Positions 1 through 16,184 of a stretch of 45,170 nt of DNA are shown here, piece by piece. This DNA is from Planctomycetota bacterium (GTDB lineage: Bacteria; Planctomycetota; Phycisphaerae; Phycisphaerales; UBA1924). Every line of letters starts with the position of its first letter. Position 1 is the stretch's first letter. The notes below the pieces were generated by a model that saw nothing but the letters and a program-made list of their open reading frames with translations, did no database searches and was not told the DNA's origin. The stretch is taken from contig RFGI01000135.1 in assembly GCA_003696725.1 (NCBI GenBank), positions 1-45,170 of the forward strand, in the 5' to 3' direction. Position numbers and translations under genes: made by a program.

Positions 1-2
1 GC

Positions 3-130
3 ACCGCCAGCACCGCGCCGGCGCCGCCGAGCCCGACGTGCCGGGCGTGGACCCGGTTCAGTACGCGGAATTGCGGACGCAGTACCGGCGGACGGGGAAA
101 CGCGAGGGTCGCGGTGAATCCTCCGTCATA
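3..130 (+). CDS. C-terminal end of an unidentified gene (5' end outside window)
   Basis: The frame starting at base 3 is open from the window edge, and its codons up to about base 110 have almost exclusively G or C in third position, as in the real genes here; the other two plus frames do not and hit stops at 112 and 128. It reads as a hydrophilic tail (PVQYAELRTQYRRTGKREG). The product cannot be named from so little. No stop codon separates it from the transposase, so its original terminus is not visible; translation would continue through the REP element into the next entry. Whether this is a genuine fusion or a stop lost when the mobile element arrived is unknown. Confidence 0.35.
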
Positions 131-703
131 ATGGGGCAGGCCTCCGTGCCTGCCATACAAAAAGCCCCGGCTCGGCAGGCAGAGACGCCTGCCCCACTGC
201 CGCCGGGTGTTTCCGGAGCCGCCAGAGACGGCCTCCGTATCAGTCGTCGCAGGTTGCCGCATTGGCGCATGGACGGAGCGACCTACTTCGTCACCTGGCG
301 GTTGCGATCATCGCAGCGGGAGTTGTCCGAATCAGAGCGATCACTTGTTGTTGATGCGCTGCGCCATTTCGACGGTGAGCGATACGACCTGATCGGGTAT
401 GTCGTGATGAACGATCATGTTCATCTTGTTGTGCGGCCGTATGAGGGCTGTGAACTCTCGGGCCTGCTTCATACCTGGAAGTCGTACACGGCGAACCGGA
501 TGCAGCGGGAGACCGGGCGGGTCGGCGCAGTCTGGCAGGATGAATCGTTTGATCGAATCGTTCGCGATGAGGATGAGTACTTTGAAAAGCTCGGGTACAT
601 TCTGACAAACCCCCAGCGCCGATGGCCGGGTATTCAGGAGTACGCGTGGGTTGGAGTCTGCGACAGTGGGGCAGGCCTCCGTGCCTGCCGAGGAACATGC
701 TGA
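131..703 (+). CDS. REP-associated tyrosine transposase (RAYT, Y1/HUH family)
   Basis: Single-strand transposase of the TnpA-REP type, which recognises and nicks REP hairpins. Family signatures are the RRLPHW...GATYFVTWRL start of the fold, the HUH metal motif NDHVHLVV, the WQDESFDRIVRDEDEY segment, and the GYILTNP helix expected to carry the catalytic tyrosine. The core occupies roughly bases 245-650. The start is uncertain: the ATG chosen lies inside the upstream REP, TTG 254 and ATG 269 are alternatives, and the frame is open back to the window edge. The last residues (GAGLRACRGTC) are encoded by the downstream REP and the stop lies in that element's linker. All family motifs are present, so it may be active. 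The family is certain, the N-terminus is not. Confidence 0.85.
   Translation: MGQASVPAIQKAPARQAETPAPLPPGVSGAARDGLRISRRRLPHWRMDGATYFVTWRLRSSQRELSESERSLVVDALRHFDGERYDLIGYVVMNDHVHLVVRPYEGCELSGLLHTWKSYTANRMQRETGRVGAVWQDESFDRIVRDEDEYFEKLGYILTNPQRRWPGIQEYAWVGVCDSGAGLRACRGTC
132..196. repeat. Paired inverted REP (BIME-like) upstream of the RAYT
   Basis: Two 23-base REP units face each other: 132-154 (starting TGGGGCAGGCCTCC) and its imperfect inverse at 174-196, differing only in the centre. The linker (155-173) is 19 bases. Read on the minus strand, the second unit is preceded by GTGG, the type of tetranucleotide that RAYTs recognise next to REP hairpins. Each unit can also fold on itself (GGGCAGGC with GCCTGCC). 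Confidence 0.85.
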
Positions 704-731
704 AACACGGCAGGCAGGGACGCCGGCCCCC
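666..731. repeat. Paired inverted REP (BIME-like) downstream of the RAYT
   Basis: The unit at 667-689 is identical over 23 bases to the one at 132-154 and is preceded by a G, giving a GTGG foot. The inverted partner at 709-731 is more diverged. The linker (690-708) is again 19 bases and contains the RAYT stop codon at 701-703. Same orientation and geometry as the upstream pair. Confidence 0.85.
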
Positions 732-791: not shown

Positions 792-2345
792 TTAGGCCTC
801 AAGCCGCGCCGCGAGCCAGCCGGCGACGGCGTCGATGGCGATCCGCTCCTGCTCGAGCGTGTCTCGGTGGCGGACGGTGACGGTCTGGCCCGTCAGCGTC
901 TCCGAGTCGACGGTGAAGCAGTAGGGGCAGCCGGCCTCGTCCATGCGGGCGTAGCGCTTGCCGATGGACTGCTTGGGGTCGGTCTCGACCAGGCCGAAGC
1001 GGGCGCGGAGCTCCCTGTGCAGGCGCGCGGCCACGTCGGGCATCCCGTCCTTGTTCACCAGCGGGAAGACCGCGGCCTTGATCGGCGCCACGCGCGGGTG
1101 GAACCTCATATAGACCTTGCTCGGCCGCGCCGGGTCGGGCGTGTAGGCCTCGCAGATCAGGGCCAGGACGCCGCGGTCGGCGCCCGCCGAGGGCTCGACC
1201 ACGTGGGGCAGGTACCGCTCGTGGCGCTCCTGATCGAAGTATTCGAGCTTGGCGCCGGAGTGCTCGGCGTGCTGGCGGAGGTCGTAGTCGGCGCGGTCGG
1301 CGACGCCCTCGAGCTCGCCGAAGCCCGGGGCGGTGAAGGGGAAGCGGTACTCGATGTCGCTGGTGCCGGCGCCGGCGGTGGCGTAGTGGGCCAGCTCGTC
1401 CCGGTCGTGCTCGCGGAGCCGGAGGTTGGCGCCGGTGAGCCCCAGCGACCGCCACCACGCCAGGCGCAGGTCGCGCCAGAAGGCGTACCACTCGCGCGTT
1501 GAGTCCGGGTGGCAGAAGAACTCGACCTCCAGCTGCTCGAACTCGCGCGAGCGAAAGGTGAAGTTGCGCGGCGTGACCTCGTTGCGGAAGGCCTTGCCCA
1601 TCTGGGCGACGCCGAAGGGCACGCGCACGCGCGTGGTGTCCAGGACGTTCTTGTAGTTGATGAAGATGCCCTGGGCCGTTTCTGGGCGGAGGTAGGCGAC
1701 GTCCTCTTCGGTGGCGGTGGCGCCGATGTACGTCTTGAACATGAGGTTGAAGGCGCGGGGCGCGGTGAGCGTGCCCTTCTGGGTCGCGTGGGGCCCGAGC
1801 ACGTCGGCGAGGTCCGATTCGTCGAGTTCGGTGAGCGGTTGCTCGATAAACCCGCCCGTGTCGGGGTGCTTGGCGGCGTGCTTGTCGGCTTTCTTGCGCG
1901 CGGGGGCCTCGGTGTCCGGATCGCCCTCGACGAACGCGAAACAGATCGGCGCCGCGGTGCGGTCTGCGGGGGTGAGCACGCGCACGTGGTCGGCGCGGTA
2001 GCGGCGCTTGGATTCCCGGCAATCCACCATCGGGTCGTTGAATCCCCCGACGTGGCCCGACGCTTCCCAGACCTTGGGGTTCTGGATGATGCAGGAGTCG
2101 AGGCCGACGATGCAGAGGGGGGCGCCGTCGGGCCCATCGGGCGGGCAGAGGACGGTGTCGCGCCACCAGGCGTCCTTGAGGTTTTTTTTGAGTTGGGCGC
2201 CGAGCGGGCCGTAATCCCAGAAGCCGTTGATCCCGCCGTAGATCTCGGACGCGGGGTAGATGAAGCCCCGGCGTTTGCACAGGGCCATGATGTCGTCCAT
2301 GGGCTTGGCGGCGGGGTCGGTCGCGTCGGAGGGCTGGTCGGTCAT
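792..2345 (-). CDS. glyS: Glycyl-tRNA synthetase, single-chain class II
   Basis: Charges tRNA-Gly with glycine in the cytoplasm. The 517-residue protein has the alpha2-type GlyRS layout: ALCKRRGFIYPASEIYGG and FWDYGPLG near the N-terminus, an insertion rich in Lys and His, class II motif 2 (GKAFRNEVTPRNFTFRSREFEQ is split by the catalytic Arg), the DIEYRFPF and GELEGVADR segments, PSAGADRG before the C-terminal part, and an anticodon-binding domain ending GWLAARLEA. The reading frame stays open far upstream into nuoH on the other strand, but similarity begins at the ATG chosen (MTDQPSDATD), which has a TACAGT hexamer 7 bases upstream and no ribosome binding site. Divergent from nuoH. Confidence 0.95.
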   Translation of the reverse strand: MTDQPSDATDPAAKPMDDIMALCKRRGFIYPASEIYGGINGFWDYGPLGAQLKKNLKDAWWRDTVLCPPDGPDGAPLCIVGLDSCIIQNPKVWEASGHVGGFNDPMVDCRESKRRYRADHVRVLTPADRTAAPICFAFVEGDPDTEAPARKKADKHAAKHPDTGGFIEQPLTELDESDLADVLGPHATQKGTLTAPRAFNLMFKTYIGATATEEDVAYLRPETAQGIFINYKNVLDTTRVRVPFGVAQMGKAFRNEVTPRNFTFRSREFEQLEVEFFCHPDSTREWYAFWRDLRLAWWRSLGLTGANLRLREHDRDELAHYATAGAGTSDIEYRFPFTAPGFGELEGVADRADYDLRQHAEHSGAKLEYFDQERHERYLPHVVEPSAGADRGVLALICEAYTPDPARPSKVYMRFHPRVAPIKAAVFPLVNKDGMPDVAARLHRELRARFGLVETDPKQSIGKRYARMDEAGCPYCFTVDSETLTGQTVTVRHRDTLEQERIAIDAVAGWLAARLEA

Positions 2346-16124: not shown

Positions 16125-16184
16125 GTGGGACGGGCGTCTCGCCCCTCGGTGTGGTTGGGATGACGGCCGAGACGGCCGTCCCAC
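16125..16184. repeat. Paired inverted REP-like element between the anti-sigma and coiled-coil genes
   Basis: GTGGGACGGGCGTCTCGCCC (16125-16144) faces an inverted unit at 16162-16184. Read on the minus strand, the second begins GTGGGACGGCCGTCTCGGCC. The two differ at two positions that pair with each other inside the unit (G-C becomes C-G), so the small hairpin is kept. Both have the GTGG foot. Lies in the 202-base gap, which holds no gene. Confidence 0.8.

Follow-up and report, generated by a model that had tools for sequence, protein, structure and literature searches.

A RAYT transposase between its own REP pairs in a planctomycete, probably acquired horizontally and inserted at the end of a BFD-like gene

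The window, the whole 45,170-nucleotide stretch analysed here (positions 1-45170, contig C191), carries at 131-731 a RAYT open reading frame flanked on each side by an inverted pair of REP hairpins (Table 1). This REP-flanked RAYT locus is real. It is probably a REPtron (a TnpA_Y1 class-2 RAYT between its own REP pairs) that arrived horizontally and integrated at the 3' terminus of a BFD-like gene. The genome is a 2.46 Mb bin of 215 contigs that is 94% complete. Both the closest relatives of the genome and those of its second RAYT indicate Planctomycetota (Phycisphaerae-like). Genome bins can include misplaced contigs; synteny (BFD-like tail and glyS) and the occurrence of resident-family REPs on the window contig argue against this here.

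Table 1. Features of the window at and near the RAYT locus
Feature	Position	Strand	Basis
C-terminus of BFD-like [2Fe-2S] protein gene, truncated by contig end	2..130	+	similarity to BFD-like proteins near glyS in G465, G446; ORF 2..703
REP unit 1, loop CTCCGT, foot ATGG at 131-134	131..154	+	repeat comparison, fold test
Left-pair linker, 19 bases	155..173	.	7/19 identical to right linker
REP unit 2, loop GTCTCT, intact GTGG foot 194-197 (minus-strand reading)	174..197	-	hairpin/foot search, fold test
RAYT domain	about 254..703	+	profiles, structure match, residues conserved in all 22 relatives
HUH motif His codons	416-418, 422-424	+	
WQ	533-538	+	
Catalytic Tyr, in YILTNP	596-598	+	
Stop TGA	701-703	+	
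REP unit 3, loop CTCCGT, intact GTGG foot 666-669	666..689	+	hairpin/foot search, fold test
Right-pair linker, 19 bases, contains RAYT stop codon	690..708	.	
REP unit 4, loop GTCCCT, without GT[AG]G foot, weak hairpin	709..730	-	fold test
glyS (glycyl-tRNA synthetase), convergent neighbour; used for locating the empty site	792..2345	-	
REP of the genome's abundant family (about 95 copies), cognate with the valS-embedded RAYT of contig C143	4052..4074	-	

The protein scores above the cut-off of Pfam Y1_Tnp and matches NCBIfam NF047646 (REP_Tyr_transpos) with an E-value of about 2.5e-21, although its 76.1-76.6 bits fall just short of that profile's cut-off of 80. With the NCBIfam profile transpos_IS200 it reaches 19.5 bits where 55 is required, too low for a place in IS200/IS605. 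An AF2 model based on 22 aligned relatives has a mean pLDDT of 86, and its best PDB match is E. coli TnpA_REP bound to a REP hairpin (4er8, E 1.3e-8), followed by the TnpA proteins of IS608 and ISDra2. The protein bears NDHVH and YILTNP motifs whose His, Tyr and Asn are invariant in the 22 relatives, where WQ is also kept. By profile and predicted structure it is an HUH/Y1 transposase with a TnpA_REP fold and a Y-x-x-x-N-P motif, which bears out the RAYT transposase called in a first-pass annotation of the same DNA. The assignment of the gene to the RAYTs is based on the protein together with its flanks; dispersed cognate REPs are the usual companion and lie outside the gene's definition. Inspection of codons ahead of the RAYT domain found no convincing independent start, except an ATG and a GTG inside unit 1. 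The protein is thus likely translated as a fusion product or from a REP-borne start.

The two REP pairs, set in register, form a 64-nt direct repeat that is 78% identical and whose first 23 bases are identical. Four unit matches were found in the window, where 0.01 would be expected by chance. Units 1 and 3 share one loop and units 2 and 4 have loops of another kind, so that two hairpin types alternate. Four units in two inverted pairs, two of them with intact GT[AG]G feet, flank the gene. The first-pass annotation had described two BIME-like inverted pairs of equal geometry, left units identical over 23 bases and a stop codon in the right linker, and all of this holds. It had also called the 19-base linkers identical, which is right for length but not for sequence, where 7 of 19 bases agree. 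Of the GTGG feet that it saw beside the hairpins, those of units 2 and 3 were confirmed, but unit 1 reads ATGG and unit 4 is footless. Unit 4 also folds no better than shuffled sequence (z=0.24), in contrast to the other three units (z -2.5 to -3.1).

The damaged feet are the outer ones, so the window copy may be trapped. It may no longer be able to excise, and it has probably not multiplied. These defects also fit the reading that the locus is a dead remnant, whose protein is no longer made or whose ends are no longer substrates. Any alteration of the E. coli GTAG foot prevents cleavage, and the outcome differs among other REPtrons (PMC8266576). The near absence of REP copies from the genome points the same way. 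The frame is nevertheless free of stops, all catalytic residues are kept, the fold is predicted with high confidence and both inner units are intact. We consider a dead remnant rather unlikely.

The window REP unit, allowing up to two mismatches, has five copies in the genome, and four of these are at the locus. The lone dispersed unit (C121:5191-5212; L003 1501-1522) has a GTGG foot and lies between dnaJ-like and groEL-like genes. A core match at C111:41487 was rejected as a REP, being without a foot and without a stem beyond the core. The many dispersed cognate REPs of other RAYTs were thus not found for this one. The abundant REP of the genome is instead GTGGGACGGGCGTCTCGCCCGTC, with 95 matches, a count that rules out the window unit as the main REP. 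REPs of this very sequence surround a RAYT embedded in valS on contig C143, the only other Y1_Tnp gene in the genome. The window locus had been put forward earlier as the parent element of REPs elsewhere. That proposal falls, because the unit is nearly confined to the locus and the abundant REP flanks the second RAYT, which argues that the window RAYT is not the source of the genome's other REPs. Absence of the 23-base unit from the rest of the genome had been named as the finding that would count against the proposal, and the search came within one outside copy (C121:5191) of it.

Other repeats occur in the window. The abundant REP forms an inverted pair at 16125-16147 and 16162-16184, with one and two mismatches. 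At 2440-2640, between glyS and a nuoH-like gene, a palindromic repeat of another family (CACCCTCTCCCGTGGGGAGAGG) occurs three times in tandem.

Bases 2-130 resemble the C-termini of BFD-like proteins encoded near glyS in two relatives, G465 and G446, at 40% identity over 30-35 aa; this is a short match to a 43-aa tail, and the contig begins 130 bp upstream of the element. The full BFD-like proteins of the relatives score just below the Pfam Fer2_BFD cut-off. In G465, a member of the same family that belongs to another genus, 22 bp separate the end of the BFD-like gene from the glyS stop codon, and this interval provides the empty site. In G446, the second closest genome, another gene occupies the interval. 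In the window, the BFD-like gene's own stop is gone and the frame, which is uninterrupted between base 2 and the stop, crosses the left REP pair into the RAYT, in keeping with the earlier suspicion that the left REP encodes the N-terminus. The end of glyS lies 61 bp beyond the element. No contig overlapping window positions 1-131 was found among the genome's contigs. From this comparison, we propose that the element inserted at the 3' end of the BFD-like gene next to glyS.

The second RAYT of the genome (L134 2193-3884; L006) lies in frame within a gene. Three plus-strand REPs, the RAYT and three minus-strand REPs interrupt valS, after which ValRS resumes. A set of 392 Planctomycetota genomes gave 60 RAYT-like matches. 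Of these, 29 lie in open frames 350 aa or longer; a RAYT frame on its own usually measures 150-300 aa. Pfam domains identify the host for 17 of the 29: ValRS, LeuRS, AlaRS, FabA-like proteins, restriction-type methylases, DUF1156 and FMN oxidoreductase. Host genes at other loci encode ValRS, LeuRS, adenosine-deaminase-like, ClpB-like, Ham1 and Hsp70 proteins. LeuRS has two insertion sites with RAYTs of one clade, and an hsp70 gene of the window's family contains an in-frame pair-RAYT-pair, which is the window's own layout. In-frame RAYTs, mostly bounded by inverted REPs, were seen at L158, L153, L156, L147, L148, L165, L025-L028, L033, L034, L021, L149-L152, L154, L157, L160, L162, L163, L166, L030, L036, L038-L040 and L233. 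An AF2 model of a ValRS-RAYT fusion segment, built from four sequences only, has a mean pLDDT of 44, too low to say anything about the fusion.

By sequence comparison, the ValRS loop flanked by DQWY and NIRDWC appears to be an insertion hot spot. It spans 46-78 aa in most parsed genomes of the window's family and 255-311 aa in five that carry a RAYT there. Genera of one family (L203-L231) differ at this loop: some leave it empty, L210 has REP sequence only, L223 and L226 have repeats in it and others carry a RAYT. Every filled loop has its own inverted REP pair, plus on the left and minus on the right, with the foot outward. Because filled and empty loops occur in one family and the filled ones end at their own inverted REPs, these comparisons suggest that REP-RAYT-REP units insert as wholes, presumably by transposition. 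The ValRS insertions may go back to one old event or to several. Six genomes with the insertion hold 63, 98, 11, 21, 5 and 56 matching REPs, compared with 0-1 in ten genomes without it and 29 in one (G455), a contrast inflated by deriving the REP pattern from the inserted set. The RAYT of G455 may have been lost or be located elsewhere. G027 has a ValRS insertion with a different REP, and one match to the valS-type pattern.

Alternatively, ordinary horizontal transfer and homologous recombination, for example between REPs already present in a loop or an intergenic site, could have brought in the window element together with its flanks, the RAYT not having transposed itself. The L210 loop, with its REP-like stretch and no RAYT, is consistent with REPs coming first. 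We judge this route unlikely, as no other foreign DNA adjoins the element between the BFD-like tail and the nearby glyS, and elements elsewhere occupy many unrelated sites where they are bounded by their own REPs only.

The closest proteins are 51-63% identical to the window RAYT and come from Planctomycetota, Thermodesulfobacteriota, Wallbacteria, Pseudomonadota, Myxococcota, Gemmatimonadota, Armatimonadota and Calditrichota. Phylogenetic analysis placed the RAYT in a clade (starred in the tree) of 16 rows from at least 8 phyla, with a sister from Armatimonadota; this is a quick tree of a short alignment with SH-aLRT support only, from which too-short loci were left out. No close homologue was found among 400 genomes of its order, and the best matches elsewhere in the order are 46-54% identical. 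The REP unit is absent from 40 family and order relatives. Searches found neither a near-identical copy in another species nor a second copy in the genome. A phage, virus or plasmid vehicle was also sought and none was found, with no match to phages or viruses and one weak match to a plasmid. The spread of the clade over at least 8 phyla, together with the lack of a close homologue in the order, indicates that the element is foreign and was horizontally acquired. The mobile origin put forward in the first-pass annotation gains support from this patchy kinship and from the uninserted neighbourhood in a relative.

A common REP design is seen in the clade, with a GTRG foot, a 7-bp stem and a 6-base loop in differing sequence. 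A single REP sequence conserved across phyla was rejected, since every relative has its own stem and a similar loop. Over 14 distinct REP units from the window clade or from kin outside the tree, 99% of stem cells are paired and 24 cells, in 5 of the 7 pairs, carry double-sided changes; the units were chosen by hairpin search, which biases the paired percentage towards structure and the double changes less so. Stem covariation is 0.656, against at most 0.154 for controls with slid partners. The core GGCCTCCGTGCC has 109 copies in the Glaciimonas genome and 71 and 73 in those of two other proteobacterial relatives, versus 0-1 for reversed controls, and 4 in the window genome.

RAYTs are usually viewed as domesticated, immobile single-copy host genes, which here would mean vertical descent with loss in most relatives and REPs as mere substrates; we find this very unlikely, because the single copy, the few cognate REPs and RAYT insertions that look inherited (ValRS set, SH-aLRT 94) fit it, but the mixing of phyla in the gene tree, the lack of close homologues in the order, the uninserted BFD-like/glyS interval of G465 and related elements inside many unrelated genes do not.

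By analogy with E. coli TnpA_REP and IS608, the RAYT would bind the REP hairpin and GTRG foot on single-stranded DNA, and its catalytic tyrosine would nick beside the hairpin. For a GTGG foot, the guide scheme in the literature predicts that cleavage falls at CC. The outer REP ends would then be joined to a new site, moving REP-RAYT-REP as one unit. We infer binding, cleavage, strand transfer and any present activity of the window RAYT from these homologs. A wider reading, for which the case seems evenly balanced, treats REP-RAYT-REP elements as autonomous transposons of the single-strand type, which enter protein genes in frame, often essential ones, and persist since the fused frame could not be lost without the host enzyme. 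Host enzymes such as aminoacyl-tRNA synthetases are essential. The frame need not be targeted, because selection in essential genes would leave in-frame insertions. The valS RAYT would have made the roughly 95 resident REPs, and the window element would be a newly arrived second RAYT of the same lifestyle, fused to the BFD-like end.

The window RAYT resembles the TnpA_REP/RAYT REPtrons of E. coli (yafM), Stenotrophomonas and Pseudomonas, which are likewise HUH/Y1 with WQ and YxxxNP, have inverted GTRG-footed hairpins and share the 4er8 fold. The E. coli REPtron also has BIME-like pairs on both sides, in which Y and Z2 units alternate much like the two hairpin types here (PMC2817692). Unlike known REPtrons, the window RAYT has a cognate REP that is almost only local, appears foreign in a planctomycete, is in frame with a host gene and has kin within host genes. 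It shares [ND]HVH, WQ, long canonical REPs and a patchy distribution over phyla with TnpA_Y1 subclass 2.7 (Quentin et al. 2018, PMC6006769). Compared by published motif, YILTNP departs at one position from that subclass's YI[LR][NQ]NP (PMC6006769). The IS200/IS605 elements IS608 and ISDra2 have the same catalytic fold, and a single-strand mechanism is expected; in contrast to them, the window element has inverted rather than direct hairpin ends, no tnpB and a class-2 Y motif ending in NP. In-frame palindromes within genes are also known from intragenic REPs and from the palindromic elements of Rickettsia (PMC3733652). These contribute 20-80 aa of repeat only, whereas the planctomycete cases place a whole transposase gene and its REPs in the host frame.

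RAYTs have been described as domesticated, and formal evidence of gene mobility is lacking (PMC6006769). Earlier surveys discarded overlong RAYT 'fusion' proteins as fusions or errors. Our search of openly accessible journal papers found intragenic REPs without RAYTs as the only precedent for RAYTs inside genes; relative to that literature, RAYTs with REPs in frame inside host genes are new. The filled and empty ValRS loops offer the comparative evidence of unit insertion that the literature held to be lacking, and they are ready sites for tests. For annotation, this discarding of very long 'fusion' transposases calls for caution, and aminoacyl-tRNA synthetases here carry a nuclease domain. 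Residence inside an essential enzyme, if true, would explain the persistence of RAYTs, a standing question on REP populations.
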